Assembly (NCBI RefSeq): GCF_018308945.1
Contig: NZ_CP070501.1
Coordinates: 1,550,001 to 1,614,000 of the forward strand
Reading direction: 5' to 3'
Length of the DNA stretch: 64,000 nucleotides
Source: Agrococcus sp. Marseille-Q4369
GTDB lineage: Bacteria; Actinomycetota; Actinomycetes; Actinomycetales; Microbacteriaceae
Shown here: piece after piece, positions 40,154 through 58,169 of the stretch
Position numbering within the stretch: the stretch's first letter is position 1
Layout of the letters: each line of letters begins with the position of its first letter
The notes under the pieces: model-generated
Database searches by the model: none
Told to the model about the DNA's origin: nothing
What the model saw: the letters and a program-made list of their open reading frames with translations, nothing else
Position numbers and translations under genes: made by a program

Positions 40154-40855
40154 ATGAAGACGCACGAGCGCGTGATGGCGTGGGTGACCGAGGAGCTGCA
40201 GAGCGGCCGGCTCACCATCGGCGACCACCTGCCGGGCGAGCGCGCGCTCGCCGAGGCGCTCGGCATCTCGCGCGGATCGCTGCGCGAGGCGCTGCGCGTG
40301 CTCGAAGCGCTCGGCACCATCCGCACGTCGACCGGATCGGGCCCGCGCTCGGGCACGATCCTCACCGCCGCGCCCGAGCAGGCGCTCGCGCTCGCCCTCA
40401 GCATGCAGCTCGCGACCCGGCACGTCGAGCACCGGCACATCTACGAAGCACGCCTGCTGCTCGAGACGTGGAGCGCCGAGCACGCCGAGCTCGGCGAGCG
40501 CGAAGTCGCGGCCGCCGCGGCGCTGCTCGACCGCATGGACGACCCCGCGCTCGCGGTGCCCGACTTCCTCGAGCTCGACGCCGAGTTCCATGTCACGATC
40601 GCGCGCGCCGCGCACAACCCGCTGCTGTCGACGCTGATGGATGCGCTCCGCACCTCGATCGCGGACCACACGCGGGAGCGCGCCGAGGCGCTCCCGGATT
40701 GGCCGTCGACCGCCGTGCGGCTGCGGAGCGAGCATCGCGGGATCCTCGAGCGGCTCCGGGCGAACGACCGCGACGGCGCCGCCGAGCGCATCCAGGCTCA
40801 CATCCGCGGCTACTACCGCGAGACCTCGCAGAGCGCGCCGACGCCGGAAGAGTGA
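40154..40855 (+). CDS. GntR/FadR-family regulator (FCD domain), LldR-like
   Basis: The 233-residue protein has a GntR winged helix-turn-helix at about 5-75 (LPGERALAEALGISRGSLRE, RVLEALGTI) and an FCD effector domain at about 95-220. FLELDAEFHVTIARAAHNPL and the His in RSEHRGILERLRAND are the Asp/His metal-binding positions. It precedes an MHS transporter and a lactate-dehydrogenase-like flavoenzyme, as in lldR-lldP-lldD loci, so a 2-hydroxy acid is the likely effector. A GATACT box 8 nt before ATG 40154 suggests a leaderless start. Tandem TGGTTCGACCA sites in the next gap are its probable operators. Confidence 0.88.
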   Translation: MKTHERVMAWVTEELQSGRLTIGDHLPGERALAEALGISRGSLREALRVLEALGTIRTSTGSGPRSGTILTAAPEQALALALSMQLATRHVEHRHIYEARLLLETWSAEHAELGEREVAAAAALLDRMDDPALAVPDFLELDAEFHVTIARAAHNPLLSTLMDALRTSIADHTRERAEALPDWPSTAVRLRSEHRGILERLRANDRDGAAERIQAHIRGYYRETSQSAPTPEE

Positions 40856-40888
40856 TCCGCGCGGCACGCCCGCGAGCGCATCCGCCGC

Positions 40889-40950
40889 TTGACTTGACGG
40901 ACACCGTCCCCCTACTGTCACTGTGGTTCGACCACATGGTTCGACCACAT
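40889..40950 (+). promoter_or_regulatory. Promoter with tandem TGGT-tcg-ACCA operators
   Basis: A -35 TTGACT (40889-40894), an 18-bp spacer and a -10 TACTGT (40913-40918) precede two copies of TGGTTCGACCA (40924-40934 and 40937-40947). They sit just at and after the expected start of transcription. The sites match the TNGTNNNACNA pattern of FCD-type GntR regulators such as LldR. Confidence 0.6.
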
Positions 40951-40979
40951 CCCGTGGACCTTCTCGAGGGAGAGAACTC

Positions 40980-42311
40980 TTGTCCAGCACGACTACTGCG
41001 GCCCCGCCGGAGCGCCTCAACTACCGCGTCCTCATCGGCAGCCTCTCGGGTTCCGTCATCGAGTGGTTCGACTTCCTCGTCTACGGCACCGTCGCGGCGC
41101 TCGTCTTCAACAAGACGTTCTTCCCGACCGACGACCCGTTCCTGTCGACGATGCTCGCCTACGCGTCGTTCTCGCTCACCTTCTTCTTCCGCCCCGTCGG
41201 CGGCATCGTCTTCGCCCACATCGGCGACCGCATCGGCCGCAAGAAGACGCTCTTCCTCACGCTCATGCTCATGGGCGGCGGCACGGTCGCGATCGGTCTG
41301 CTGCCCGACTACGCCGCGATCGGCATCGCGGCGCCCATCCTGCTGCTGCTGTTCCGCATCCTGCAGGGCATCGGCATCGGCGGCGAGTGGGGCGGCGCGC
41401 TGCTGCTCGCCTACGAGTACGCGCCGAAGCACCGGCGCGGCCTCTACGGCGCCGTGCCGCAGATGGGCATCTCGCTCGGCCTGCTGCTCGCCTCGGCCGT
41501 CGTCGCGCTGCTCACGCTCCTGCCCGAGGACCAGTTCCTCTCGTGGGGCTGGCGCGTGCCGTTCGTCGGCTCGATCGTGCTCGTCTTCATCGGCCTGTGG
41601 ATCCGCAACGGCCTCGACGAGACGCCCGAGTTCAAGCGCATCCGCGAGACCGGCGCGCAGCTGCGCCTGCCGATCAAGGAGGTGCTGACGAAGCACTGGC
41701 GCGCCGTGCTCGTCTCCATCGGCGCGAAGGCCGCCGAGACCGGCCCGTTCTACATCTTCGGCACCTACGTCATCGCCTACGCGACGAACATCCTCGACGT
41801 GCGGCAGAACACGGTGCTGCTCGCGGTCGCCGCCGCCGCGCTCGTCGCGACGATCTGGATGCCGTTCTTCGGCCACCTCTCCGACAAGGTCGGCCGACCG
41901 GTGCTCTACCGCTTCTCGGCGATCACCACGATCGTGCTCGTCGTGCCCTACTACTGGGTGCTCAACATCGGCGAGACGTGGGCGGTCTTCGCCGCGACGA
42001 TCGTCGCCTTCGGCATCCTGTGGGGCAGCGTCAACGCGATCCTCGGCACGCTCATCGCCGAGAGCTTCAGCCCGGAGGTGCGCTACACCGGCGCGACGCT
42101 CGGCTACCAGGTGGGCGCCGCGATCTTCGGCGGCACCGCACCGCTCATCGCCGCGTGGCTGCTCGAGGTCAGCGGCGGTCAGTGGTGGCCGATCGCCGCA
42201 TACGTCGCGGTCTGCGCCTCGCTCTCGGTGATCGCGTCGTTCTTCATCAAGCACGTCGCGCACCGCGAGCCGACCGACTTCGACGTCGCCGCCCAGACCG
42301 TCGCTCGCTGA
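40980..42311 (+). CDS. MFS transporter, metabolite:H+ symporter (MHS) family
   Basis: The 443-residue, 12-helix transporter has the MHS signatures: [20 protein letters not shown] at the first helix, [20 protein letters not shown] at loop 2-3 and [19 protein letters not shown] at helix 4. MHS proteins import organic acids, betaines or osmolytes with protons; with the adjacent FMN 2-hydroxy-acid dehydrogenase, a lactate-like acid is likely. The best start is TTG 40980, preceded by GAGGGAGAG, since the in-frame GTG 40923 lies inside the operators. The downstream gene follows in 47 bp with its own ribosome binding site. Confidence 0.88.
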
Positions 42312-42358
42312 GCGACCCCACGCATCCACTCATCCCAGAAGGAACCAGGAGGCACAGC

Positions 42359-43618
42359 ATGGTGAAGCGCCAGCTGCCCAAGCCGCTCGAGCTCATGGAG
42401 CTCATGCAGTTCAAGAAGCCCGACCTCGACGGCCGCCGCCGCCGGCTGAACAACGCGCTCACGATCGACGACCTGCGCGTCATCGCGAAGCGCCGCACGC
42501 CCGCGGCCGCCTTCGACTACACCGACGGCGCCGCCGACGGCGAGGTCTCGCTCGCTCGCGCGCGGCAGGCGTTCGAGGACGTCGAGTTCCACCCCGACAT
42601 CCTGCGCCCGGCCGAGCGCGTCGACATGTCGACCCAGGTGCTCGGCGGCCCGAGCGCGATGCCGTTCGGCATCGCCCCGACGGGCTTCACGCGCCTCATG
42701 CAGACCGAGGGCGAGACGGCCGGCGCCGGTGCAGCGGCTGCCGCGGGCATCCCCTTCACGCTCTCGACGCTCGGCACGACGACGATCGAGGACGTCAAGG
42801 CGACGAACCCGCACGGCCGCAACTGGTTCCAGCTCTACGTCATGCGCCAGCGCGAGATCTCCTACGGCCTCGTCGAGCGCGCGGCCGCCGCGGGCTTCGA
42901 CACCCTCATGTTCACGGTCGACACCCCGATCGCCGGCGCGCGCCTGCGCGACACGCGCAACGGCTTTTCGATCCCGCCGCAGCTGTCGATCAAGACGATC
43001 GCGAACGCGATCCCGCGGCCGTGGTGGTGGTTCGACTTCCTGACGACGCCGAAGCTCGAGTTCGCATCGCTCTCGACGACGGGCGGCACGGTCGGCGAGC
43101 TGCTGAACTCGGCGATGGACCCGACGATCTCGTACGAGGACCTCGACGTCATCCGCAGCATGTGGCCGGGCAAGCTCGTCGTGAAGGGCGTGCAGAACGT
43201 GCCCGACGCGGTGCGGCTCATCGACCTCGGCGTCGACGGCATCATCCTGTCGAACCACGGCGGCCGCCAGCTCGACCGAGCCCCCGTGCCGTTCCACCTG
43301 CTGCCGCAGGTCGTGCGCGAGGTCGGCAAGGATGCGACGGTCATGATCGACACGGGCATCATGAACGGCGCCGACATCGTCGCGTCGGTCGCGCTCGGCG
43401 CGAAGTTCACGCTCATCGGCCGCGCCTACCTCTACGGCCTCATGGCCGGCGGCCGCCAGGGCGTCGACCGCACGATCGCGATCCTCCGCTCCGAGATCGC
43501 CCGCACGATGGCGCTGCTCGGCGTCTCGTCGCTCGAGGAGCTCGAGCCCCGTCACGTCACGCAGCTGCGCCGGCTGATGCCGGTGCAGGCGGATGCGTCG
43601 GTGCCGTCGGTGCGCTGA
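42359..43618 (+). CDS. FMN-dependent 2-hydroxy-acid dehydrogenase/oxidase (L-lactate dehydrogenase-like)
   Basis: The 419-residue protein belongs to the LldD/glycolate oxidase family. [20 protein letters not shown] near residue 50, [13 protein letters not shown], the substrate-binding Tyr in WFQLYVMRQ, and the catalytic base and Arg in [16 protein letters not shown] near 300 are all present, followed by [20 protein letters not shown]. It oxidises an L-2-hydroxy acid, most simply L-lactate to pyruvate, and passes electrons to quinone or O2. ATG 42359 has an AGGAGG site. It is the last gene of the GntR-MHS-dehydrogenase unit, and a terminator follows. Mandelate or glycolate cannot be excluded. 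Confidence 0.9.
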
Positions 43619-43637
43619 GCTCGCGTCGCAACGTCAA

Positions 43638-43662
43638 GGGCCGCCCGTTCACCGGGCGGCCC
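43638..43662 (+). terminator. Terminator hairpin after the hydroxy-acid dehydrogenase
   Basis: Ten-base arms GGGCCGCCCG (43638-43647) and CGGGCGGCCC (43653-43662), extended by an AA/TT pair on the outside, lie 19 bp past the stop codon. Confidence 0.75.
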
Positions 43663-43681
43663 TTCGGCATCTGCGGTCGGC

Positions 43682-43728
43682 TCAGCGCACGAGCAGCAGC
43701 TTCCCGCCCGGCGCGTCGGGCGAGCCGG
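43682..43728 (-). pseudogene. Quinone oxidoreductase, last ~15 codons only
   Basis: Read on the minus strand this encodes GSPDAPGGKLLLVR and a stop, matching the C-terminus of the quinone oxidoreductase at 20962 (DAPGGKILLVR). Nothing upstream on that strand continues the protein. At about base 43728 the sequence switches to the remnant of another gene on the opposite strand. Confidence 0.65.
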
Positions 43729-43970
43729 TCTCACACGAGCTGCCCGCGTCGTTCGTGCAGGCGCTCATCGCGATGGGCTACCGCCCGGTGCCGCTGAGCG
43801 GCGAGGGCAAGATCGTCGACATCGCGATCCAGCGCACGGCCGAGGCGCTCGTCGACCGCGACGCCGACGTCATGCTGGTCAGCCACGACCGCGACTTCGC
43901 GCCGCAGATGGAGCGGCTGGCCGACGATGAGGAGCGCCGCGTCGGCGTGATCCTGCTCGAGTTCCTGTAG
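43729..43970 (+). pseudogene. NYN-domain (PIN-like) protein, C-terminal part only
   Basis: The segment encodes about 80 residues: FVQALIAMGYRPVPLSGEGK, VDIAIQRTAEALVDRDADVM and LVSHDRDFAPQMERLADDEE, the second half of an NYN/LabA-type ribonuclease domain with its two Asp-containing motifs. The N-terminal strand and first catalytic Asp are missing. The frame runs on upstream into unrelated sequence without a plausible start. It is a remnant created by the same event that truncated the abutting quinone oxidoreductase fragment. Together with the terminator, these remnants fill the 400-bp gap between 43619 and 44021. Confidence 0.65.
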
Positions 43971-44021: not shown

Positions 44022-44603
44022 TCAGACGAGCTCGGCCGTCTCGGCCAGGCGCACCATCGGCGCGAGCATGCCCATCAGTGCCACAGCCTGGTCGTGGGCC
44101 TCGTCGGTCGCGCCGGCACACGCATCCGTCACCACCGTGATCGCCTTGCCGGCGTCGACGGCGCCGAGCACGGTCGAGAGCACGCAGCAGTCGGTCGCGA
44201 CGCCGCAGACGACCAGCTCGGGGTGCTCGGCGGTGAGCGCGGCGAGCTCGTCGCCCCACTTCGAGAAGGTCGGCAGCGAGAGCACTGCGTGCTCGTCGGC
44301 GACGGGCATCGTGAGATCCCACGCCGGCGAGTCGGGCTCGTCGCGGCACTCGTCCCAGCGCTCGTAGTAGGCGCGCCAGCTGCCGGGCTCGGCCGGGTCG
44401 CGCACGAAGCGGGTCCAGATCACGGGCCCCTCGGCGGCATCGACGAGCGCGCGGATGCGCTCGGCCGCCGCCTCGTAGCCGCCGGTCGCCCACTGGCTCG
44501 CGGGGTCGCGGAAGATCTGCTGCATGTCGATCACGACGAGCGCGGGCGGCACGGCCGACGGCCGGGGCTGCGCCCGGCCGCCGACGGCAGTGGAGTGCGT
44601 CAC
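44022..44603 (-). CDS. Cysteine hydrolase (isochorismatase-like)
   Basis: The 193-residue protein has the isochorismatase/nicotinamidase fold: ALVVIDMQQIF with the catalytic Asp near residue 25, FSKWGDELAAL with the catalytic Lys near 117, and VCGVATDCCVLSTVLGAVDA with the nucleophilic Cys near 152. Family members hydrolyse amides or ureido bonds (nicotinamidase, N-carbamoylsarcosine amidase, RutB peroxyureidoacrylate amidohydrolase). Its GTG start overlaps the stop of the NCS1 permease by 4 bp, so it processes either the imported compound or a nitrogen-containing product of ring opening. The position in a locus with a flavin monooxygenase suggests a RutB-like step, but this is inference. Confidence 0.85.
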   Translation of the reverse strand: MTHSTAVGGRAQPRPSAVPPALVVIDMQQIFRDPASQWATGGYEAAAERIRALVDAAEGPVIWTRFVRDPAEPGSWRAYYERWDECRDEPDSPAWDLTMPVADEHAVLSLPTFSKWGDELAALTAEHPELVVCGVATDCCVLSTVLGAVDAGKAITVVTDACAGATDEAHDQAVALMGMLAPMVRLAETAELV

Positions 44604-46063
44604 GCCGACACCGTATCGACCGGCGCCCCGCCCGCGGGCTGCCCGCTCGTCGCGTCGAACGTGCGCTGCGGCGCGGTCGCGCTGCGGCGGGCCAGCGGCG
44701 GCAGCTTGCGCACCACCAGGTAGGCGGCGGTCGCACCGATGGCGCCGGCCAGGTAGGAGACGTCGCCGAACTCGGCGAACACCCCCGCGAGCGGCCCGGT
44801 GAACAGGGTCGACTGCCAGAAGAGGGCCGAGAAGGCGCAGCCGATGATCCAGGCGACGAAGCCCCACTCGATGACGCGACGCTTGTCGAACAGCTCGCGC
44901 GTGCCCGCGGCGCCGAGCTTGCGCAGGCGCAGGAAGTAGTCGAGCAGCAGGATGGTGCTGAAGGGCACCACGAGGTAGGCGAGCACGAGCAGGAAGTCGT
45001 AGAAGCTGCCGTAGGGGTTGGTCTGCATGAGCAGCGTGATGCCGAGGCTGATCGCCGCGATCACGATGACGCCGACGATGCGACCGACCGGGATGTGGAT
45101 CGTCAGCAGCGACAGTGAGCCGCCGTAGAGGTTCATGGCGCTCACCGGCAGCGTCGAGAGCACGACGGTCGCCATCGCGATCGGCGCCCAGCTGCCGGTG
45201 AGCTCGGCGAGCGCCGCGATCGCGTCGAGCTCGCCGGCGAAGCTCGAGACGAGCACGCCGATGCCGCCCAGCCACATCATCGCCACGAACGAGCCGCCGG
45301 CGGTGTAGAGGGTGACCTTCGTGTGCGAGGTCGAGCGCGGCAGGTAGCGCGAGAAGTCGGAGGCGAAGGGCGTCCACGTCATGACGTACGCGAAGAAGAA
45401 GCCCGCGAAGGTGAGCCAGCCGGCGAACTCGCCCATGTAGAACGGCGCGTCGGTGTTGACCGCCTGCGTCAGCTCCGCTCGCTGGAACGACAGCACCGTG
45501 ATGACGGCGAACAGGATCGCCAGCACGACCGTGGCGATCTTGTTGATGAGGTGGATGAGGTTGTGGCCCCAGATGGCGAAGACCGCCTGCACCGCGAAGA
45601 TCCCGATCGCCGCACCCCAGAAGGGCACGTCGACCAGCTGCTGCAGCGCGAGCACCGCGAAGACGGTGTTGACGGCCGTCCAGCCGATCGCCGAGACGAT
45701 CGTCAGCAGCGCGATGGGCAGGAAGTTGCCGAAGTAGCCCATCGGGCCGCGGCCCTGCACCTGCTGGGGCACGCCCAGCTTGGTGCCGATGCCGGCGAGC
45801 ACGCCCATGACGAGCGCGCCGAGCAGGGTGCCGACGGCGACCGCGCTCAGCCCCTGCCAGACGTTCAGGCCGAACAGCGATGAGAAGAAGCCCGAGACGA
45901 GCACGGCGAGCACCATGTTCGCGGCGAACCAGAGCGTGAACTGGTTGCGGGGGCGTCCGTGGCGCTCGGCGACCGGGATCTCCTCGGTCGCGAAGGGCTC
46001 GGTGCGCGTGAGCGACGAGCCGTAGGTGGGCGTCGGGTCGATGAAGGGGGTGTGGTCAGTCAT
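44600..46063 (-). CDS. NCS1-family permease (purine/cytosine permease-like)
   Basis: The 487-residue, about 12-helix transporter has the NCS1 features RNQFTLWFAANMVLAVLVSG in helix 1, VQGRGPMGYFGNFLPIALL and SAIGWTAVNTVFAVLAL in helix 3, and FASDFSRYLPRSTSHTKVTL between helices. NCS1 proteins import nucleobases, hydantoins, allantoin or B-vitamin-type heterocycles. It lies between the flavin reductase fusion (upstream) and the cysteine hydrolase (downstream) on one strand, so the left arm of the catabolic locus imports and processes one heterocyclic compound. ATG 46063 has a GAAGG site. Confidence 0.9.
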   Translation of the reverse strand: MTDHTPFIDPTPTYGSSLTRTEPFATEEIPVAERHGRPRNQFTLWFAANMVLAVLVSGFFSSLFGLNVWQGLSAVAVGTLLGALVMGVLAGIGTKLGVPQQVQGRGPMGYFGNFLPIALLTIVSAIGWTAVNTVFAVLALQQLVDVPFWGAAIGIFAVQAVFAIWGHNLIHLINKIATVVLAILFAVITVLSFQRAELTQAVNTDAPFYMGEFAGWLTFAGFFFAYVMTWTPFASDFSRYLPRSTSHTKVTLYTAGGSFVAMMWLGGIGVLVSSFAGELDAIAALAELTGSWAPIAMATVVLSTLPVSAMNLYGGSLSLLTIHIPVGRIVGVIVIAAISLGITLLMQTNPYGSFYDFLLVLAYLVVPFSTILLLDYFLRLRKLGAAGTRELFDKRRVIEWGFVAWIIGCAFSALFWQSTLFTGPLAGVFAEFGDVSYLAGAIGATAAYLVVRKLPPLARRSATAPQRTFDATSGQPAGGAPVDTVSA

Positions 46064-46149
46064 GGCGTCATTGCCTTCTGCTGGGGTGGTGGGGTGGGGC
46101 GGATGCGTGGTGGCCGCTGGGCGGCCCGAGCTCGGTCGGCGAGGGGTCG

Positions 46150-47118
46150 TCAGAGCTCGGTGAGGGAGGCGCCGTCGTAGAACTGGCCCGCCTTGTAGAC
46201 GATCGGCACGGCCTCCCCGACATCGGCGTGGATCACGCGCGCGATGAAGACGGTGTGGGTCTTCGCCTGGAAGCGCTCCTTGATCTCCGCCTCGATCGAC
46301 GCGGCCGAGCCGTCGATGAGCGGCGAGCCCTTGGGCCCCGCGTGCCACTGCACGCTCGCGAACTTGTGGGGGTCGCGCGAGGCGAAGGTCGCGAGGGTGT
46401 CGCGCTGGTCGGTGCCGAGGATGTTGATGCCCAGGTGCTGCGAGTGGAACAGCGCCGGGTAGGTCGACGAGGTCTTCTGCACGCAGATGAGCACGAGCGG
46501 CGGGTCGAGCGAGACCGAGGCGTACGAGTTCGCGGCGAGCCCGCGGGGCCGGCCCTCCGCATCCGTCGTCGTCACGACCGTGACGCCGGTGATGAACTGG
46601 CGGTTGAAGCCCTTGAGCGCCTCGCGGGCGAAGTCGCCCGAGAGGTCGTCGACGATCGAGTCGGCGGTCGCGTCGAACGCGGCGCGCAGCGACGGCACGC
46701 CCAGGTCGGCGAGCATCTCGCTCTGATCCCACGTGACGCGCTCGAAGGCGATGCGGCCGTCGCGCAGGATGCCCTGGTTCGAGCCGCGCGTGTGCACGCG
46801 GGTGCCGGTGGCGGGCACCTCGCCCAGGTCGTTCGTGAAGGTGCCGGTGGTGCTCCAGAAAATGGCGAAGTCGTCGCCATCGATGATGAGCTTCTCAACG
46901 GTCGTCGTCAGGTCGGGGAACGCGGCCCGCACCTCGAGGATCTCGCGCTTGTGCCCGGCGAGGTCGGTACGGCTGCCCGAGGCGGCGCTCTCGCGCACGA
47001 AGTCGTCCGTCATCACCTCGTCGAGCCGATCGACCTCGCCGCGATCCCACGCGGCCTCCCACGCGGAGAGCACCGCGCTCCTGATGTCTGGCATACCAGC
47101 CCCCGTGATGTCTTGCAT
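46150..47118 (-). CDS. SnoaL-like domain fused to flavin reductase
   Basis: The 322-residue protein has two domains. Residues about 8-130 form a SnoaL/NTF2-like cone (AWDRGEVDRLDEVMTDDFVR, FPDLTTTVEKLIIDGDDFAI). Residues about 165-320 form an FMN-binding flavin reductase of the HpaC/RutF type (FNRQFITGVTVVTTTDAEGR, GLAANSYASVSLDPPLVLIC). The reductase would supply reduced flavin to the luciferase-like monooxygenase at 51825. The start ATG 47118 is leaderless, with TTGACG, a 17-bp spacer and TACGAT ending 4-7 nt upstream. ATG 47094 is an alternative with a GGGGG site. The fusion may bring substrate or product binding next to flavin reduction. It is divergent from the GntR gene. Confidence 0.85.
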   Translation of the reverse strand: MQDITGAGMPDIRSAVLSAWEAAWDRGEVDRLDEVMTDDFVRESAASGSRTDLAGHKREILEVRAAFPDLTTTVEKLIIDGDDFAIFWSTTGTFTNDLGEVPATGTRVHTRGSNQGILRDGRIAFERVTWDQSEMLADLGVPSLRAAFDATADSIVDDLSGDFAREALKGFNRQFITGVTVVTTTDAEGRPRGLAANSYASVSLDPPLVLICVQKTSSTYPALFHSQHLGINILGTDQRDTLATFASRDPHKFASVQWHAGPKGSPLIDGSAASIEAEIKERFQAKTHTVFIARVIHADVGEAVPIVYKAGQFYDGASLTEL

Positions 47119-47232
47119 GCCAGTGATCGTAAGTGTCGACCAGTGGTTCGTCAAGTATCGCCAGTAAAATGCGGAAAATGAGCGGATGGGTTGCACGCAT
47201 GTGGCATGCAAGGTACGTTGCTTGCATGCAAG
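47111..47232. promoter_or_regulatory. Divergent leaderless promoters with TTGCATGCAA-type operator array
   Basis: Rightward: -35 TTGCAC (47191-47196), 17 bp, -10 TACGTT (47214-47219), ATG 6 nt later. Leftward: TTGACG, 17 bp, TACGAT, then the start at 47118. TGCATGC-type boxes occur at 47111-47122 (TCTTGCATGCCA), 47191-47201, 47203-47212 and as the perfect palindrome CTTGCATGCAAG at 47221-47232. They overlap both promoters or their start sites. They are the likely binding sites of the adjacent GntR protein. Confidence 0.65.
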
Positions 47233-47990
47233 AGACTTCCGAGCGATCCGGCAATGGAGCGGGCGCGGCCGAGACGCCGCTGCTCGATCGCCTGCGCACC
47301 CTCGTGCTCAGCGGCGACTACCAGCCGGGCGCGCCGCTGCCCGAGCTGTTCCTCGCGCAGGAGTTCCAGGTGAGCCGCACGCCCATCCGCGAGGCGCTCA
47401 AGCAGCTCGAGAACGAGGGGCTCGTCGAGATCCGCCCGCGCGTGGGCACCTTCGTGCGCCAGCCCACCCGTCGCGAGATCGTCGAGCTGTTCGAGCTCAA
47501 GAGCGGGCTCGAGGGGCTCGCCGCCGGCCTCTTCGCCCGCCGCGGCGCCGTGGCCGAGCTCGACGCGCTGCGGCGCAACCTGGCCGCCTCCGCCGACGCC
47601 GTCCGCCGCGGCGATGGCGCGCACTACGCCGCGCTCGTGCACGAGTTCCACCACGCGCTCATCGCCGGCGCCGACAACAGCAAGCTCAGCGAGCACTACG
47701 ACCGGCTCATGAACCAGCTCGCCTACCACCGCCTCGTGCGCAAGGCCGTCGACCAGCCCGGCCGGCTGCGCGACTCGCAGCACGAGCACGAGAGCATCGT
47801 GCTCGCCATCGAGGCGCGCGACCACATCGGCGCCGAGCTGGCCACCCGCCGGCACGTCGACGCCTCGAGCGACGCGACCATGCGCGCGATCGCGCAGGAG
47901 GAGCTCGGCACCCCAGAGGCCGGCGCCGCCGGCCGCACGGCCGACGACGGCATCGACGCCACCGGCACGACCACAGGAGTACGGGCATGA
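47226..47990 (+). CDS. GntR-family regulator (FCD domain) of catabolic locus
   Basis: The 254-residue protein has a GntR DNA-binding domain at about 15-80 (PLPELFLAQEFQVSRTPIRE, EGLVEIRPRVGTFVRQP) and an FCD domain at about 90-225, with FHHALIAGADNSKLSEHYDR and DSQHEHESIVLAIEARDHIG supplying the Asp/His metal site. The last 30 residues are a low-complexity tail. It is the first gene of the right arm and starts without a leader on a CTTGCATGCAAG palindrome. Its stop overlaps the first DUF1185 gene (ATGA). It probably represses both arms and is released by a pathway intermediate. Confidence 0.9.
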   Translation: MQETSERSGNGAGAAETPLLDRLRTLVLSGDYQPGAPLPELFLAQEFQVSRTPIREALKQLENEGLVEIRPRVGTFVRQPTRREIVELFELKSGLEGLAAGLFARRGAVAELDALRRNLAASADAVRRGDGAHYAALVHEFHHALIAGADNSKLSEHYDRLMNQLAYHRLVRKAVDQPGRLRDSQHEHESIVLAIEARDHIGAELATRRHVDASSDATMRAIAQEELGTPEAGAAGRTADDGIDATGTTTGVRA

Positions 47991-48658
47991 CCACGACCGC
48001 CACCGCGCCCGCGCGCATCGTCGACCTCTCGAGCAGCTCGACCCTGCACGGCTACGAGGCGATCGCGGCCGCGATCGGCCTGCGCAGCATCCGCACCATC
48101 ACTGAGGAGCTGCCGGGCGTCGCCCGCGCCGCGCCCATCCTGCGCGCAGCCTCGATCGCCGTGATCGCGAACCCGTGGGCCGGCACCTCCGTGACGCACG
48201 ACCTCGAGCCCGAGACGCAGCGCATCGCGCCGGTGCTCGCGAAGCTGCTCACCGACCGGCTGACCGACGTGCTCGGCGGGCCGGATGCGGTGCAGGCGTT
48301 CGGGAAGGCCGCGGTCGTCGGGCTCGACGGCGAGATCGAGCACGCCGGCGCGCTCATCCACACCCCCTACTTCGGCAACCTCATGCGCGAGGCGCTGGAG
48401 GGCACGTCGATCCTGTGCTTCTCCGACGCGCGCTCGGCCGCCGGCTCGAGCCACCGCATCCCCCTCTGGCACAAGACGGCGCCCGCCACACGCGACTTCT
48501 ACCAGTCGCTCGAGGTGCACCTCGCCGACGCCCCCCACCCGGGCGAGCTCGCCGTCATCGCGGCGGCCTCCACCGGCCCCCGCCCGCACGCCCGCATCGG
48601 CGACCGCTCGACCGATCGCGTCATCACATCCGACATCCTGAAGGAGCTCCCGCTGTGA
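47987..48658 (+). CDS. DUF1185 (amino acid synthesis family) protein 1
   Basis: The 223-residue protein belongs to PF06684 (DUF1185). The conserved core shows RTITEELPGVARAAPILRAA, SIAVIANPWAGTSVTHDLEP, FGKAAVVGLDGEIEHAGALI and the ending YQSLEVHLADAPHPGELAVI. Crystal structures of Bordetella members showed a chorismate-mutase-like fold, without an assigned reaction. Here it is followed by a second, clearly paralogous copy with a 4-bp GTGA overlap, which suggests a hetero-oligomer. ATG 47987 has an AGGAG site. Given the locus it may catalyse an isomerisation or hydrolysis of a ring-opened intermediate; this is speculative. Confidence 0.82.
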   Translation: MTTTATAPARIVDLSSSSTLHGYEAIAAAIGLRSIRTITEELPGVARAAPILRAASIAVIANPWAGTSVTHDLEPETQRIAPVLAKLLTDRLTDVLGGPDAVQAFGKAAVVGLDGEIEHAGALIHTPYFGNLMREALEGTSILCFSDARSAAGSSHRIPLWHKTAPATRDFYQSLEVHLADAPHPGELAVIAAASTGPRPHARIGDRSTDRVITSDILKELPL

Positions 48659-49248
48659 CCGAGACCGCTGGCACCACTGCCGACACCACCGGCGCGCTGC
48701 ACGTGCGCAAGATCACCACCTTCGTCGAGGAGATCGCCGCAGAGGGCGGGCGGCCGGTCGAGCCGGTCGCTCGCGTCGCGGTGGTCGCCGCCGTCATCGA
48801 CAACCCGTGGCACGGGCAGGGCTTCGTCGACGACCTGAGCGGCGGCATCGACGCGGTCGCCTCCGACCTGGGCGCGCTGCTCGCGCCGCGCGTCGTCGCG
48901 GCGCTCGGCGCCACCGTCGAGGCCTACGGCAAGGCTGCGATCGTCGGCCTGGAGGGCGAGGTCGAGCACGGCTCGGCGCTCATCCACACGCTCAAGTTCG
49001 GCGACCACTTCCGCACTGCCGCGAGCGCCACGACGCTGCTGCCGGCGGTCGAGAAGCGCGCGCCGGCCGGCACGAGCTTCGACATCCCGCTCAAGCACAT
49101 CACCGACGCCACGATCCGCTCGCACCACCAGAGCGTCGAGGTGCAGGTCGCCGACGCCCCGCACGCCGGCGAGATCCTCGTCGCCCTCGCGGCTGCCGCG
49201 CAGGGCCGACCCCAGCAGCGCCTCGCGGCGCTGGCGACCGAGCAGTAG
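48655..49248 (+). CDS. DUF1185 (amino acid synthesis family) protein 2
   Basis: The 197-residue protein is a second DUF1185 member, differing from the first mostly in the N-terminal part. It has HVRKITTFVEEIAAEGGRPV, VARVAVVAAVIDNPWHGQGF, YGKAAIVGLEGEVEHGSALI and HQSVEVQVADAPHAGEILVA. The GTG start overlaps the previous stop (GTGA) with AAGGAG upstream. The two paralogues conserve the same Gly/Glu/His-rich loop (GEVEHGSALIH versus GEIEHAGALIH), which is probably the active site. No function has been established for the family, so this pair is one of the unknown steps of the locus. Confidence 0.82.
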   Translation: MTETAGTTADTTGALHVRKITTFVEEIAAEGGRPVEPVARVAVVAAVIDNPWHGQGFVDDLSGGIDAVASDLGALLAPRVVAALGATVEAYGKAAIVGLEGEVEHGSALIHTLKFGDHFRTAASATTLLPAVEKRAPAGTSFDIPLKHITDATIRSHHQSVEVQVADAPHAGEILVALAAAAQGRPQQRLAALATEQ

Positions 49249-49257
49249 CGAGCGGCG

Positions 49258-50084
49258 ATGAGCGACGACGCTGCGATGGCGCAGCCCCGCGGCACGGGCG
49301 CGTCGGGCATCGCCCCGGTGGTGCTGCTGCACGGCGTGGGCCTCGACCGCACCATGTGGGATGCGGTGCGCGGCCTGCTCGGGCGCGGCCCGCTGGGTGC
49401 CGACGTCGTCGCGCTCGACCTGCCCGGCCACGGCGCGGAGCCGCCGCTGCGCTCGCCGCAGTCGCTCGCCGACCTCGCCGACGACGTGCTGGAGCGCCTG
49501 CCGGAGGCGGCCGGATCCGCCGGTGCGGTGCACCTGGTGGGCTTCTCGCTCGGCGCGCTCATCGCGCAGCGCATCGCGCGCTCCCACCCCGAGCGGGTCG
49601 CCACGCTCACGTGCGTGAGCTCGGTGTGCCGGCGCACACCCGAGGAGTCCGCCGCCGTCGAGGCGCGGCTCCAGGCCGCCCACGATGACTTCGCCGCGAG
49701 TGCCGCCGCCTCGATCGAGCGCTGGTACCCGGCCGGCACGACGGTGCCTGCCGAGACGATCGCCGCCACCGAGCGCGTGCTGCTCGCCAACGACGCCACC
49801 TCCTACCTGCACGCCTACGCGGTCTTCGCCCGCGGCGACCGCGAGATCTCGCCCGAGCTCGGCGGCATCGCCGCGCCGACGCTCGCGATCACCGGCGAGC
49901 TCGACCCGGGCTCCACGCCCGACATGTCGCGGCGGCTCGCCGACGCCATCCCCGGCGCCCGCGCCCGCATCGTGCCCGGCGCCCGCCACATGCTGCCGGT
50001 CGAGGACGCACCCGCGCTCGCCGCGGCACTCACCGACTTCATCGCATCCGCTTCAACCACCCAGAACGTCGAGGTATCGCAGCC

Positions 50085-50088
<4 letters not shown>
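49258..50088 (+). CDS. Alpha/beta hydrolase
   Basis: The 276-residue protein has the classical order: VVLLHGVGLDRTMWDAVRG (oxyanion loop near residue 22), nucleophile Ser in HLVGFSLGALIAQRIA near 98, Asp in ITGELDPGSTPD near 215 and His in GARHMLPVEDAP near 246. It resembles 3-oxoadipate enol-lactonase, RutD and the hydrolases that cleave ring-opened intermediates. It lies between the DUF1185 pair and the aldehyde dehydrogenase, whose start overlaps its stop by 4 bp. In a trigonelline-like pathway this would be the enzyme that splits the N-formyl or enamine intermediate; by sequence alone the substrate is open. Confidence 0.87.
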
Positions 50089-51593
<1,505 letters not shown>

Positions 51594-51604
51594 AGGCCAG
51601 GGCC

Positions 51605-51805
51605 ATGCCGCTCATCGACGTCTCCATCGCTCGCGGGCGCACCCCCGAGCAGCTGCGCGCGCTCATGCACGCGCTCCACGCGGCCGCCGAGACCACCGTC
51701 GGTGCCGCATCCGAGAACATCACCGTCATCGTGCGCGAGGTCGAGCGCGAGCACTGGTCGCGCACCGACACCACCGTCGCCGAGCGCGACGCCAGCAGCA
51801 CGTAG
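51605..51805 (+). CDS. 4-oxalocrotonate tautomerase-family protein
   Basis: The 66-residue protein begins MPLIDVSIARGRTPEQLRAL; after Met removal Pro1 would be the catalytic base of 4-OT tautomerases. The middle (ASENITVIVREVEREHW) matches the family strand with an Arg and an acidic or aromatic residue. Such small enzymes convert enol and keto forms or isomerise double bonds of ring-cleavage products. It lies between the aldehyde dehydrogenase and the monooxygenase genes, supporting formation of an enol or unsaturated intermediate. The ribosome binding site GAGGCCAGGG is moderate. The gene is too small for a precise substrate prediction. Confidence 0.85.
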   Translation: MPLIDVSIARGRTPEQLRALMHALHAAAETTVGAASENITVIVREVEREHWSRTDTTVAERDASST

Positions 51806-51824
51806 AGAGAAGGAGAGGATCATC

Positions 51825-52871
51825 ATGCGCTTTTCGCTGTTTGTCCACATGGAGCGGTGGGACGACACCGTCCCGCACCAGCAGTCGTGGGAGGACCTCA
51901 CCGAGCTCGTGCTCGCCGCCGAGGCCGGCGGCTTCGACAAGGTGTGGATCGGTGAGCACCACGCGATGGAGTACACCATCTCGCCCAACCCCATGCTGCA
52001 GCTGGCGTATCTCGCCGCCCGCACCGAGCGCATCCGCCTCGGTGCCGGCACGATCATCGCCCCGTTCTGGAACCCCATCCGGGCGGCGGGCGAAGCGGCG
52101 CTGCTCGACGTGATCAGCGGCGGCCGCGCCGAGATCGGCCTGGCGCGCGGCGCCTACCAGTTCGAGTTCGACCGCCTCGTGCCGGGCGTCGCCGCGACCG
52201 ACGGCGGGGCGCACCTGCGCGAGATCGTGCCGGCGATCCGCAAGCTGTGGGAGGGCGACTACGCCCACGACGGCGACATCTGGCAGTTCCCGACCTCGAC
52301 GAGCGTGCCCAAGCCCGTGCGCCCCGAGGGCCCGCCGATGTGGATCGCCGCGCGCGACGCCTCCTCGCACGACTTCGCGGTCGCGAACGGCTGCAACGTG
52401 ATGGTGACGCCGCTGGCGAAGGGCGACGAGGAGGTGCAGGCGCTCGTCGACAAGTTCGAGACCGCGATCGCCGACCACCCCGAGGTCACTCGCCGCCCCG
52501 AGATCATGGTGCTGCGCCACACGCACGTGCACGCCGAGAGCGACCCCGAGGGCTGGCGCGCGCCGGCCGAGGCGATCAACCGCTTCTACCGCACCTTCGA
52601 CGCGGTGTTCGGCAACAAGGTCGAGGCCGTCAACGGCTTCCACGAGCCGAGCCCGGAGTCGAAGTTCGCCGAGCGCCCCGAGTTCCAGCCCGAGAGCCTG
52701 CACCGCACGGCGATGATCGGCACGCCCGCCGAGGTCGTCGAGCGCCTGAAGCAGTACGAGGCGATGGGCGTCGACGAGTACGCCTTCTGGATCGACAACT
52801 CCATGTCGCACGAGGACAAGGCGGCATCGCTGCGCCTGTTCCTCGACGAGGTGGTGCCCGCCTTCCAGTGA
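51825..52871 (+). CDS. LLM-class flavin-dependent monooxygenase (luciferase-like)
   Basis: The 348-residue protein has a bacterial luciferase-type TIM barrel: MRFSLFVHMERWDD, GGFDKVWIGEHHAMEYTISP, RTERIRLGAGTIIAPFWNPI and ALLDVISGGRAEIGLARGAY, with RTAMIGTPAEVVERLKQYEA near the end. It has no tightly held flavin reductase of its own and would use FMNH2 from the SnoaL-reductase fusion at 46150. In related two-component systems (RutA for uracil, the Tgn oxygenase for trigonelline) such an enzyme opens an N-heterocycle directly. ATG 51825 follows an AAGGAGAGG site. I regard it as the key ring-opening enzyme of this locus; the substrate is unproven. Confidence 0.9.
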   Translation: MRFSLFVHMERWDDTVPHQQSWEDLTELVLAAEAGGFDKVWIGEHHAMEYTISPNPMLQLAYLAARTERIRLGAGTIIAPFWNPIRAAGEAALLDVISGGRAEIGLARGAYQFEFDRLVPGVAATDGGAHLREIVPAIRKLWEGDYAHDGDIWQFPTSTSVPKPVRPEGPPMWIAARDASSHDFAVANGCNVMVTPLAKGDEEVQALVDKFETAIADHPEVTRRPEIMVLRHTHVHAESDPEGWRAPAEAINRFYRTFDAVFGNKVEAVNGFHEPSPESKFAERPEFQPESLHRTAMIGTPAEVVERLKQYEAMGVDEYAFWIDNSMSHEDKAASLRLFLDEVVPAFQ

Positions 52872-52877
52872 GACCGA

Positions 52878-52917
52878 GGTGACGGATGCGCCGGGCGGCG
52901 CCCGCGCATCCGTCACC
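52878..52917 (+). terminator. Hairpin between monooxygenase and BCCT genes
   Basis: Thirteen-base arms GGTGACGGATGCG (52878-52890) and CGCATCCGTCACC (52905-52917) lie 7 bp past the monooxygenase stop. It may end or attenuate transcription before the transporter gene. The arms contain the GGATGCG word that is frequent in this genome. Confidence 0.6.
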
Positions 52918-52994
52918 GCCCCAGACCACGACCCTTCCCCTCAGCACGACCCGACCCCAGCCGCAGCAGGCAACACAACGAAGTGGAGCACACC

Positions 52995-54683
52995 ATGGAC
53001 GAGCAGACGCCGCTCGAGACACGACCGGTCGGCCGAGGCGCCGGCTTCGACACCCGCCCGGACGACCCGCCCTTCGCTGGGCACGGCCTGGAGCCGAGCG
53101 GCGAGCTCAGCGAGGCGCAGGCGAGGGCCGAGGCGCTGAGGCACAAGCCCGGCGTCGTCTTCTGGCTCTCGATCGGGCTGATCCTGGCGTTCGTCGCGTG
53201 GGCGGCACTCTCGCCCGAGTCGCTCAACGAGACGATGACGACCGCGATCGGCTGGACCACCGACTCGCTCGGCTGGTCGTACCTGGTGGTCACGACCGGC
53301 TGCATCGCGCTGCTGGCCTACCTCGCGTTCAGCCGCTTCGGCCGCATCCGGCTCGGCGCCGACACCGACCGGCCCGAGTTCAGCACCTGGGCGTGGCTGG
53401 CGATGATCCTCTCGGCGGTGATGGGCATCGGCCTCATCAGCTACGGCGTCGCCGAGCCGATCTCGCACTTCATCACGCCCCCGCACGGCCTCGCCGAGGC
53501 CGGCACGCAGGAGGCGGCGGTCGTGGCGATGCAGTTCTCGTACTTCGACTGGGGCCCCCACGCATGGGCGGTGTTCGGCGTCTTCGGGCTCGCGATCGCC
53601 TACTCGACGCACCGCAAGGGCAACACCGGACTCGTCTCGCCGATGCTGCGGCCGGTGTTCGGCGACCGCGTCGACGGCCCGCTCGGCAACGTCATCGACG
53701 TGTTCGCGATCATCGCGACGCTCTTCGGCACCACCACGTCGCTCGGCCTGGGCGCCTCGCAGATCACCGAGGGCCTCAACCGCGTGCTGGGGCTGCCGAC
53801 CGACATGTTCGTGCAGGTGCTCATCATCGCCGTGATCACCGCCATCTTCACGCTCTCGGCCCTCTCGGGCGTGAACCGCGGCATCAAGTACATCAGCCAG
53901 ATCACGATGGGCATCTCGGTGCTGCTGGGCCTGTTCGTGTTCCTCGTCGGCCCGACGAGCTTCATCTCGAACCTGTTCGTGCGCTCGACCGGCTCCTACG
54001 TGGACAGCTTCTTCGAGATGAGCTTCATCACGCCGCTCTCCAGCAGCGACTCGGAGTGGATGCAGTGGTGGACGTACTTCATGATGGCCTGGTGGCTCAG
54101 CTGGGGCGCCTTCGTGGGCGTCTTCCTGGCGAAGATCTCGCGTGGGCGCACCGTGCGGCAGTTCGTGCTGGGCGTCATGATCGTGCCGAGCCTGGTCTTC
54201 TTCGGCTGGTTCACGATCTTCGGCGGCGCCGCGATCAGCTTCGACATGGAGAACGGCGGCCAGATCGGTGCCGCGACCGGCGAGAACATCAACTCGGCGT
54301 TCTTCGAGATGCTCGGCAACCTGCCGCTGCTGGGCATCACCTCGGTGGTCGCGATCATCCTGGTGGTGCTGTTCTTCATCTCGGGTGCCGACGCGAACAC
54401 GTTCGTGCTCAGCATGCTGTCGTCGCGCGGCTCGCTCGATCCGACGAAGCCGGTGCTCACCATCTGGGGCGCGCTGACGGGCGTGTGCGCGGTGCTGCTG
54501 CTGCTCATGGGCGGACTCGGCGCGCTGCAGCAGGCGGCGATGCTCTCGGCCCTGCCGTTCACGATCATCGTGGCGCTGCTGGGCTACTCGCTCATCCACC
54601 AGCTGCGGCGCGACGCGCACTTCGACCGGATGCGCGACGTGCGCCGCGAGGAGCTGCGGACGGGGACGCTGCGGCTCAAGTAG
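52995..54683 (+). CDS. BCCT-family betaine/carnitine/choline transporter
   Basis: The 562-residue, 12-helix protein has the BCCT signature WWTYFMMAWWLSWGAFVGVF followed by LAKISRGRTVRQFVLGVM, and the Gly-rich substrate segment AVMGIGLISYGVAEPISHF. BCCT proteins take up quaternary ammonium compounds, with Na+ or H+. Its place at the end of the right arm suggests that the locus handles a betaine; it could instead be an unrelated osmolyte transporter behind the hairpin. ATG 52995 has GGAG at the right spacing; the in-frame GTG 52983 has none. A terminator follows. Confidence 0.92.
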   Translation: MDEQTPLETRPVGRGAGFDTRPDDPPFAGHGLEPSGELSEAQARAEALRHKPGVVFWLSIGLILAFVAWAALSPESLNETMTTAIGWTTDSLGWSYLVVTTGCIALLAYLAFSRFGRIRLGADTDRPEFSTWAWLAMILSAVMGIGLISYGVAEPISHFITPPHGLAEAGTQEAAVVAMQFSYFDWGPHAWAVFGVFGLAIAYSTHRKGNTGLVSPMLRPVFGDRVDGPLGNVIDVFAIIATLFGTTTSLGLGASQITEGLNRVLGLPTDMFVQVLIIAVITAIFTLSALSGVNRGIKYISQITMGISVLLGLFVFLVGPTSFISNLFVRSTGSYVDSFFEMSFITPLSSSDSEWMQWWTYFMMAWWLSWGAFVGVFLAKISRGRTVRQFVLGVMIVPSLVFFGWFTIFGGAAISFDMENGGQIGAATGENINSAFFEMLGNLPLLGITSVVAIILVVLFFISGADANTFVLSMLSSRGSLDPTKPVLTIWGALTGVCAVLLLLMGGLGALQQAAMLSALPFTIIVALLGYSLIHQLRRDAHFDRMRDVRREELRTGTLRLK

Positions 54684-56746: not shown

Positions 56747-58169
56747 GGCTCATCGCATTTGAGGGTGTAGCAGCGGCCTGAAGCCGCCGGCCTCGAGCAA
56801 CGATCTCGCGATGTAGTTGGTGAGGTTGCGGAAGCCGAGCGCGGAGCCGCGGAGGTGCTCGAGGCGGCCGTTGATCGCCTCCGTCGGACCGTTCGAGGTC
56901 CCGGGTCGGTCGAAGTAGGCGAGCACGTCGAGGGCTCGCTGCTTGAGTGTTCGCCCGAGCGTGATCACCTCGCGCAGCGCCGCGGGCACGCCGCTGCTGA
57001 CCGTGTTGATCAGCTCGGTCATGAGCGTGCGCGCGGCGGCGCGGTCGGGTTCCCGGTAGGCGGCGACCATGCGCTGATAGATGCCCCAGGTGACCTCGAC
57101 CGCGAGATGCCGCTCGTCAGCGAAGAGCGCGTCGAGCCGTTGCTGCTGCCGCAGCGTGTGGAGCGCCGCGCCGGTGTGGAGGGTGCGGCGAGCGGCGTAG
57201 AGCGGATCGCCCTTTCTGCCCCGATGCCCGTGGATCTGCTGCTGGATCCGCCGCCGGCAGCTGTCGAGCGCGTTCCCGGCGAGCCGGACGACGTGGAACG
57301 GATCCATCACGGCGACCGCCTCGGGCAGCTCCTCGGTGGTGGCGGTCTTGAAGCCGGAGAACCCGTCCATCGCGACGACCTCGACCCGGTCGCGCCAGGC
57401 CTGGGATCGGGCGGCGAGCCAGTGCTGGAACGCCTGCTTCGAGCGGCCCTCGACCATGTCCAGCAGCCGCGCCGGCCCCGTCCCGTCGCGGATCGGCGTG
57501 AGGTCGATGATGACGGTCACGTAGCGGTCGCCGTGACGCGTGTGGCGCCAGACGTGCTCGTCCACGCCCAGCACCGCCACGCCGTCGAAGCGGGCAGGAT
57601 CATCGAGCAGGCGCCGCCTGCCCTCCTCGAGCACGGCGGTGTTGGCGGTGTGCCAGGCGACGCCGAGCCCGGCCGCGACGCGCGAGACCGTGAGGTGGTC
57701 GAGCACCAGCGCGTCCAGCGCCCACCGCAGACCGGTGCGAGAGATCTTCGACCGCGGCTCCGCCGCCCGCGTGGTGTCCTGCCGCCAGATGCGGCCGCAG
57801 CCGGTGCAGCGGTAGCGGCGGACGCGGACCAGCAGCGTGGTGGGCCGGTGCCCGAACGGCGCGTGCGCCAGCCGCCGCGTGACCGTGTCGCGCGGCACCC
57901 CTTGGCAGCCGCAGTCGCGGCACCACTGGTCGGCCTGCACGACCCGGCAGAAGAGCACCGCGCGGTCGGGCTCGAGGCGTCGGCCGATGGCTTCTAAGCC
58001 GAGCTCGTCGAGTCGGCAGAACGTGGTCAGGCAGGGCGCGTCAAAGGTAGCGTTGGACACGTCGAGGTCTTTCGGACGGTGAGCGTAGGAACTTCCATCC
58101 TGGAAGACCTCGACCCCTACCCGGCCAGCGACGCACCTCGACCGTCTACACCGTCAACTGCGATGAGCC
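56747..58169 (-). mobile_element. ISL3-family insertion sequence, complete, with 8-bp target duplication
   Basis: The element is 1423 bp. Its 24-bp terminal inverted repeats (56747-56770 and 58146-58169) start GGCTCATCGCA and match at 22 of 24 positions. The flanking octamer CCTTTGGT occurs directly on both sides (56739-56746 and 58170-58177), an 8-bp target duplication as expected for ISL3. One intact transposase gene fills it, and its stop codon lies inside the left repeat. It is probably recent and active. It inserted directly upstream of the -10 box of the aldo/keto reductase gene. Confidence 0.93.
56750..58060 (-). CDS. ISL3-family transposase
   Basis: The 436-residue protein has an N-terminal zinc finger with WCRDCG and YRCTGCGRIW, a helix-turn-helix region (LDHLTVSRVAAGLGVAWHTA) and the DDE nuclease domain. 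The first Asp is in VAVLGVDEHVWRHTRHGDRY, the second in VVAMDGFSGFKTATTEELPE near residue 240, and the C-terminal Glu in GTSNGPTEAINGRLEHLRG. Length and motifs match ISL3 transposases of actinobacteria. It lies within an element with matched inverted repeats and target duplication, and no frameshift is seen, so it is likely functional. Confidence 0.95.
   Translation of the reverse strand: MSNATFDAPCLTTFCRLDELGLEAIGRRLEPDRAVLFCRVVQADQWCRDCGCQGVPRDTVTRRLAHAPFGHRPTTLLVRVRRYRCTGCGRIWRQDTTRAAEPRSKISRTGLRWALDALVLDHLTVSRVAAGLGVAWHTANTAVLEEGRRRLLDDPARFDGVAVLGVDEHVWRHTRHGDRYVTVIIDLTPIRDGTGPARLLDMVEGRSKQAFQHWLAARSQAWRDRVEVVAMDGFSGFKTATTEELPEAVAVMDPFHVVRLAGNALDSCRRRIQQQIHGHRGRKGDPLYAARRTLHTGAALHTLRQQQRLDALFADERHLAVEVTWGIYQRMVAAYREPDRAAARTLMTELINTVSSGVPAALREVITLGRTLKQRALDVLAYFDRPGTSNGPTEAINGRLEHLRGSALGFRNLTNYIARSLLEAGGFRPLLHPQMR

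Follow-up and report, generated by a model that had tools for sequence, protein, structure and literature searches.

A candidate Tgn-type cluster for N-methylpyridinium carboxylate catabolism, conserved and expanded, in Agrococcus sp. Marseille-Q4369

Trigonelline serves widely as an osmolyte in plants and algae. Its breakdown by Acinetobacter baylyi ADP1 reportedly follows the trigonelline (tgn) pathway that Perchat et al. are said to have described in 2018, and the chemistry, gene order and gene names used below are those reported for it. Direct ring cleavage is presumably also the strategy of the pyr system of Arthrobacter sp. 68b, which we take to combine a two-component flavin monooxygenase, an aldehyde dehydrogenase (ALDH), an amide hydrolysis and a succinic semialdehyde dehydrogenase (SSADH). 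Here, a divergent locus of Agrococcus sp. Marseille-Q4369 was compared with these systems. It lies in a stretch of 64,000 nucleotides (the window), which corresponds to positions 1550001-1614000 of the single-contig 2.74-Mb genome. Homology and synteny suggest, with a probability of about 0.72, that it is an actinobacterial Tgn-type catabolic cluster for an N-methylpyridinium carboxylate, most likely trigonelline, with a conserved and expanded kit of enzymes.

The left arm (minus strand) encodes an isochorismatase-like hydrolase, an NCS1 permease and a SnoaL-like domain fused to a flavin reductase. The right arm (plus strand) encodes a GntR regulator, two DUF1185 proteins (a and b), an alpha/beta hydrolase, an ALDH, a tautomerase, a luciferase-like monooxygenase (LLM) and a BCCT transporter. 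All these genes, named in an earlier note on this DNA, were found where it had placed them, with Pfam profile matches above cut-off. The 4-bp overlaps that the note had called prevalent occur at four of the nine same-strand junctions (isochorismatase/NCS1, GntR/DUF1185a, DUF1185a/DUF1185b and hydrolase/ALDH).

Homology to Tgn-type clusters and conservation of the locus

The Acinetobacter baumannii record L053, whose gene order is presumably that of the A. baylyi tgn genes, was used as a proxy for them, and the Tgn comparison rests on L053 sequences. Open reading frames (ORFs) in an unannotated stretch of L053 match the GntR, DUF1185, hydrolase, reductase, LLM, ALDH and NCS1 proteins of the window, and after these come ORFs interpreted as encoding a porin, a transposase and an SSADH. 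The LLM proteins of the window and of L053 share 52% identity over 347 residues (360 bits). Against the window LLM, none of the other 15 LLM genes in the Agrococcus genome scores above 71 bits, and 4 of them gave no match. Identities to L053 are 47% over 167 residues for DUF1185a, 45% over 493 residues for ALDH, 40% over 176 residues for DUF1185b, 40% over 150 residues for the reductase half and 29% over 231 residues for the hydrolase. The window cluster thus contains homologues of the Tgn-type flavin reductase, ALDH and alpha/beta hydrolase as well as two PF06684 proteins related to the DUF1185 accessory protein TgnF. Besides the TgnC-like ALDH (34% identical to the SSADH-like ORF of L053) no TgnE-type SSADH was found in it; two genes elsewhere in the genome are 46-47% identical to that ORF. 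L053 itself, a 4.09-Mb record listed as a plasmid, looks like a mislabelled chromosome.

Proteobacterial clusters were reached through searches of plasmid records with the window LLM and DUF1185b. In Leisingera, Burkholderia and Thioclava they show the arrangement GntR / DUF1185-hydrolase-reductase-LLM-ALDH, followed downstream by BCCT in Thioclava and by a cytosine permease (NCS1) in Burkholderia. In Mesorhizobium one long hydrolase-labelled gene replaces hydrolase and reductase, and an ABC transporter follows the cluster. On Sinorhizobium meliloti pSymA (L190), an SSADH-like gene and genes for GntR, DUF1185, hydrolase, reductase, LLM and ALDH lie together in a single stretch, with identities to L053 of 74% for DUF1185, 72% for LLM, 71% for ALDH, 58% for SSADH, 51% for hydrolase, 46% for GntR and 40% for reductase. 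No tblastn match (E 1e-4) to tautomerase, BCCT, NCS1, SnoaL or isochorismatase was obtained in this 35-kb stretch. According to PMC4207669, S. meliloti grows on trigonelline only with pSymA, and from this dependence we infer that the L190 cluster is its trigonelline locus. Growth of R. pomeroyi on trigonelline is likewise reported in PMC8269262, and TgnF is described in PMC7913881 as a homologue of a DUF1185-family protein. The earlier view that a DUF1185 pair is foreign to Tgn has therefore to be given up. Because TgnF is homologous to DUF1185 and the proteobacterial clusters pair DUF1185 with hydrolase, LLM and ALDH, the overall pathway is probably one already described.

Conservation was assessed by a profile search of genome contigs, the query being 12 aligned LLM proteins. 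Among the best 80 of 569 relatives, 43 are actinobacterial by record title and 37 belong to Pseudomonas or Pantoea. A content filter retained 41 of the 43 actinobacterial loci, two on cut contigs (L092 and L112) being dropped. At a tblastn threshold of 1e-4, homologues of DUF1185b, hydrolase, ALDH and LLM were detected in all 41 loci, DUF1185a, SnoaL and reductase in 40 each, GntR in 39, tautomerase in 37, BCCT in 28, NCS1 in 15 and isochorismatase in 10, all 10 with NCS1. These counts are somewhat inflated because the filter itself relied on some of the genes, and the threshold may overlook genes that are short or diverged, the tautomerase being one example. Counts over all loci include a few duplicates (identical LLM rows of the same genome from two collections: L033/L108, L034/L080, L035/L103 and L082/L168). 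Candidate carriers are Arthrobacter, Streptomyces, Mycolicibacterium, Nocardioides, Microbacteriaceae and others. The comparison of LLM and DUF1185 neighbourhoods proposed in the earlier note thus showed that the gene arrangement recurs in other actinobacteria and is therefore not due to chance. In the open-access literature, in the parts available, we found no published account of the actinobacterial cluster, a weak negative since most subscription papers lie outside this scope.

Twenty further DUF1185-bearing regions come from genomes of the same family or genus; in 12 of them LLM is accompanied by the DUF1185 pair, hydrolase and ALDH, and the remaining 8 are without LLM, without other core genes, or both. 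The left arm of one of these regions (L158) is the same as that of the window. PF06684 is present in 27 of 394 genomes of the class and in 45 of 398 genomes of the family. Among the same-genus genomes listed, it occurs as a single copy in two (G710 and G760), in which no cluster of the window type was found, and is absent from seven. A same-family genome (G717, locus L168) and Pseudoclavibacter sp. AY1H1 have identical LLM proteins. Two loci, L155 (G465) and L156 (G490), have a DUF1185a-DUF1185b-hydrolase-ALDH block with no LLM recognised and apparent ABC transporter genes ahead of it, preceded in L156 also by an alcohol-dehydrogenase-like gene. In L032 (G208) the same block follows an LLM of another kind (about 30% identity), and neighbouring genes look, over their first residues, like the glutamine synthetase and amidotransferase of L077 and L089. 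The block has apparently been combined with more than one kind of front end.

The association of LLM and DUF1185 extends to Pseudomonas. In 149 genomes, LLM (E of at most 1e-80) was detected in 86 and PF06684 in 96; PF06684 is present in all 86 genomes with LLM versus 10 of 63 without (p 1.4e-30 in a Fisher test that ignores relatedness). Two of the 86 (G860 and G931) have only an LLM of 43-45% identity, and the window-type oxygenase proper occurs in 84 of the 149. In 26 Pseudomonas genomes, a set partly overlapping the 149, no DUF1185 was detected in the LLM stretch, and all 26 carry PF06684 elsewhere. In the one Pseudomonas locus compared (L228), LLM adjoins an NCS1 gene 58% identical to that of L053, which ties the Pseudomonas group to the Acinetobacter system. 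In another Pseudomonas genome the LLM match falls into two overlapping pieces (G894:C1:1585075-1586107), which points to either a disrupted gene or a misassembly.

An LLM tree was built from 84 of the 107 rows longer than 300 residues (23 Pseudomonas rows were omitted, and shorter rows, L038 among them, had been removed beforehand). The actinobacterial and Pseudomonas rows are split from the trigonelline-type group by a branch of 0.9 with a support of 100/100, the opposite group comprising Acinetobacter, Burkholderia, Leisingera, Thioclava, Mesorhizobium and a small-genome actinobacterium (L049). Within the Actinobacteria-Pseudomonas group, the window LLM has no well-supported placement, and because the L032 branch is very long, the placement of L032 and the midpoint root are meaningless. 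L049 (G335), from a 1.6-Mb genome of the same class, encodes an LLM of 53% identity together with DUF1185, hydrolase and ALDH; this LLM groups with the Proteobacteria in the tree, where its branch is long. L128 (Pantoea sp. Ap-967, G783) lies among Pseudomonas, its genome was sampled as belonging to the same genus as a Pseudomonas genome, and its Pantoea name is probably outdated. A third LLM type (43-45%), with its own DUF1185, was found as full clusters in the three Pseudomonas genomes fetched. It coexists with the first type in G863 and G940, so that the LLM types may differ in substrate.

Table 1. Features of the candidate Tgn-type locus (positions within the window)
Feature	Position	Strand	Evidence or remark
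Isochorismatase-like hydrolase, optional module	44022..44603	-	PF00857, 103.6 bits
NCS1 permease, candidate ring-compound importer	44600..46063	-	PF02133; 27% identity to NCS1 of Acinetobacter L053
SnoaL-like domain fused to flavin reductase	46150..47094	-	PF07366 and PF01613
Putative GntR operator site 1, TTGCATGCCA	47113..47122	+	TTGCATGCNA pattern match
Putative GntR operator site 2, TTGCATGCCA	47202..47211	-	Motif search
Putative GntR operator site 3, palindrome TTGCATGCAA	47222..47231		Overlaps proposed GntR start
GntR/FCD regulator	47226..47990	+	PF00392, PF07729; start uncertain, 47199 possible
DUF1185 protein a, TgnF-like	47987..48658	+	PF06684, 166.3 bits
DUF1185 protein b, second paralogue	48655..49248	+	PF06684, 199.8 bits
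Alpha/beta hydrolase, TgnD-like	49258..50088	+	PF00561
Aldehyde dehydrogenase, TgnC-like	50085..51593	+	PF00171
4-Oxalocrotonate-tautomerase-like protein	51605..51805	+	PF01361
LLM flavin monooxygenase, TgnB-like, proposed ring-opening oxygenase	51825..52871	+	PF00296
BCCT transporter	52995..54683	+	PF02028, 583 bits; TIGR00842, 460 bits (cut-off 407.55)

Putative regulator sites, accessory proteins and neighbouring genes

The pattern TTGCATGCNA, selected after inspection of the gap between the SnoaL-reductase and GntR genes, occurs at three places in the 2.74-Mb genome (four strand matches, one place being a palindrome), all of them between these two genes; the reversed control pattern gave two genome matches. 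In the window, GCATGCAA has 4 matches versus 0.76 expected, and 1 of 100 shuffles reached 4. In 24 loci that share this divergent gap, including the window, GCATGCAA/TTGCATGC was counted 44 times in 5.5 kb of gaps, palindromes being counted twice, and 4 times in 519 kb outside; 18 of the 24 loci have at least one occurrence and 6 have none. Among 47 other loci with a DUF1185a match, the motif lies upstream of DUF1185a in 23 (30 of the 53 motifs there). A sigma-70-like match spans 47154-47126 on the minus strand (region total 2 versus 0.3 in shuffles), and operator site 1 is thus located just downstream of it. GntR may bind this operator-like motif.

The first DUF1185 structures date from 2010 and had no function assigned. 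Residues highlighted for the BB2672 structure (PMC2954203) were scored in 68 loci, including duplicates and LLM-less loci. E92, H93, R172 and R176 are invariant in 68 of 68 a and 68 of 68 b proteins; E90 is conserved in 68 a and 67 b, H98 in 67 a and 68 b, and H144 in 62 a and 68 b proteins. Position 174 is His in 55 of 68 a proteins and in 12 of 12 single DUF1185 proteins and Gln in 65 of 68 b proteins, and this divergence at one conserved site suggests a division of labour or a mixed hexamer. Gly102, highly conserved according to PMC2954203, is aligned to Phe in all DUF1185 proteins scored. DUF1185b matches the solved structures 2qtp and 3byq.

The tautomerase residues Pro1 and Arg11 are each present in 57 of 57 sequences detected with tblastn, and no tblastn match to the tautomerase was obtained in L053-L057 or L190. 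The GFSxG and RHM motifs of the alpha/beta hydrolase, which is proposed to act as an N-formyl-enamine succinate hydrolase, are conserved in at least 90% of 83 homologues; its match to 3kxp, an alpha-(N-acetylaminomethylene)succinic acid hydrolase, is weak (E 1.1e-5) and ranks below many other hydrolases. The isochorismatase Asp and Cys are conserved in most of 19 homologues, and in our reading of the alignment the usual catalytic Lys position of the window protein is not Lys.

Clustering of the non-core ORFs of 44 actinobacterial loci (the 43 plus L052) yielded a second ALDH in 7 loci, an ammonium transporter in 5, a glutamine synthetase in 5 and a glutamine amidotransferase (GATase) in 4. Scans of two of the five glutamine synthetases, those of L087 and L077, placed both above the TIGR03105 cut-off. 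In L087, a row of genes runs from an ammonium transporter through type III glutamine synthetase, GATase, GXGXG and glutamate-synthase domain to a protein resembling N-methyl-tryptophan oxidase (232 of 257 bits) and an amidase. Most of this row was read as an N-methylglutamate route for methylamine and therefore fits an N-methyl substrate. In A. dokdonellae (L052), a member of the second ALDH family annotated as SSADH, a riboflavin kinase and a NUDIX protein adjoin the cluster; SSADH is the best NCBIfam model of the first of these, with 545 of 646 bits and thus below cut-off.

Beyond the left arm, a separate-looking unit at 40154-43618 (plus strand) encodes a GntR/FCD regulator, an MFS transporter and an FMN-dependent lactate-dehydrogenase-like enzyme. 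Between the latter gene and the isochorismatase gene, an ORF at 43593-43970 (plus strand) with a below-threshold match to an NYN domain (23.4 versus 24.2 bits) is possibly a gene remnant. An ISL3-family transposase (56750-58060, minus strand; NF033550 above cut-off) is located about 2 kb past the BCCT gene.

Proposed route and alternative substrates

By analogy with the reported Tgn scheme, the BCCT transporter, the NCS1 permease or both would import the N-methylpyridinium carboxylate, for which trigonelline (N-methylnicotinate) is the most likely candidate. FMNH2 is proposed to come from the reductase half of the SnoaL fusion and to serve the LLM oxygenase, which would open the ring directly by a cut between C5 and C6 and give an N-formyl-N-methyl enamine semialdehyde. 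The ALDH would oxidize this semialdehyde to (N-methylformamido)methylene-succinate, from which the alpha/beta hydrolase may release formate, methylamine, CO2 and succinic semialdehyde, the latter being converted to succinate by an SSADH encoded elsewhere. The DUF1185 pair would take the place of TgnF, the tautomerase may accelerate either the isomerisation of the enamine or the decarboxylation of 2-formylsuccinate, an expected intermediate, and GntR may repress both arms via TTGCATGC[AC]A sites. The earlier proposal of N-ring opening via a semialdehyde is retained in this scheme, narrowed by homology and synteny to an N-methylated pyridinium betaine opened by LLM and reductase in a Tgn-like rather than a Rut-like manner.

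Several observations weigh against this assignment. The window LLM group is separated from the trigonelline-type group by the long, fully supported branch, so that its substrate may differ, and the hydrolase and NCS1 are just 29% and 27% identical to those of L053. Neither an SSADH nor methylamine genes could be recognised in the window cluster, no glutamine synthetase in the genome exceeds the TIGR03105 cut-off for methylamine assimilation, and the SSADH-like genes lie outside this regulon because TTGCATGCNA occurs nowhere else in the genome. Methylamine-type and SSADH-type neighbours were found in a minority of loci, related strains not being independent, a point that the Fisher test of co-occurrence also ignores; the amidase of L087 exceeds the cut-off of an allantoate amidohydrolase model and falls outside the methylamine reading. 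The authors of PMC7913881 saw no stimulating effect of their own DUF1185 protein. Trigonelline is thus the best guess for the substrate.

The same ring-opening chemistry on another N-methylated pyridinium, namely N-methylisonicotinate, N-methylpyridinium or, after hydrolysis by the isochorismatase, N-methylnicotinamide, is possible though doubtful. Such a substrate would agree with the separate LLM group, with the isochorismatase that accompanies NCS1 in 10 of 41 loci and with the third LLM type beside this one in G863 and G940. However, the 23 genomes with this LLM group contain one relative each (E 1e-60 or better) and no extra Acinetobacter-type LLM, as expected of interchangeable enzymes, and the L228 permease is close to that of L053. 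A rather unlikely reading holds that the ring-opening enzymes of Actinobacteria and Pseudomonas form a branch of their own, specialised in its substrate, and that the expanded kit carries out enzymatic steps absent from the published pathway. In it, the tautomerase would be a Pro1 decarboxylase or isomerase acting on formylsuccinate or the enamine, and the DUF1185 pair a catalytic heteromer that does more than assist the dehydrogenase.

Homarine (N-methylpicolinate) is also an N-methylated pyridine betaine, for which the BCCT transporter in the window and the clusters of this type in marine Leisingera and in Thioclava could speak. The homarine route leads to N-methylglutamate, whereas the SSADH-like and methylamine-type neighbours in some relatives fit a release of methylamine and succinic semialdehyde. 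The TgnAB step is moreover argued in PMC8269262 to be sterically unlikely on homarine, and homarine catabolism is regarded as improbable here. Rut-type catabolism of uracil or another pyrimidine is most improbable: LLM oxygenase, flavin reductase, isochorismatase, NCS1 and alpha/beta hydrolase superfamilies are all present, but the synteny of DUF1185 and ALDH points to Tgn. The Rut pathway was rejected with 71.4 of 254.75 bits for RutF and 43.1 of 238.5 bits for RutD, and RutA was absent among the 25 of 31 LLM model matches listed. An alkanesulfonate or dimethylsulfone LLM was also rejected (SsuD, 33 of 518 bits; SfnG, 50 of 383 bits).

Comparison with known systems

A complete, locally regulated candidate breakdown cluster thus appears to occur in many Actinobacteria, and its oxygenase type is found in 84 of 149 sampled Pseudomonas genomes. 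The tight linkage of oxygenase and DUF1185, the conserved DUF1185 pair and the tautomerase raise directly testable questions on the roles of these proteins. The suggestion of the earlier note that the pathway may be undescribed probably does not hold for the whole; the tautomerase, the second DUF1185 protein, the SnoaL domain and the isochorismatase are additions to the pathway reported for A. baylyi. The expanded kit and the LLM group appear to be new in the open-access literature searched, and the pathway is known in kind.

With the Rut pathway, the locus shares enzyme superfamilies, but no listed Rut model is above cut-off. The pyr system of Arthrobacter sp. 68b, likened here by its reported description, acts on pyridine, which is not N-methylated. 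The S. meliloti locus has one DUF1185 protein in contrast to two in the window. The tgn genes of A. baylyi ADP1, as reported, share with the window LLM, flavin reductase, ALDH, alpha/beta hydrolase, DUF1185, NCS1 and GntR. The window cluster, in which no SSADH was recognised and whose LLM is 52% identical by way of L053, differs from them by two DUF1185 proteins instead of one and by the addition of the tautomerase, the SnoaL domain, the isochorismatase and the BCCT transporter.

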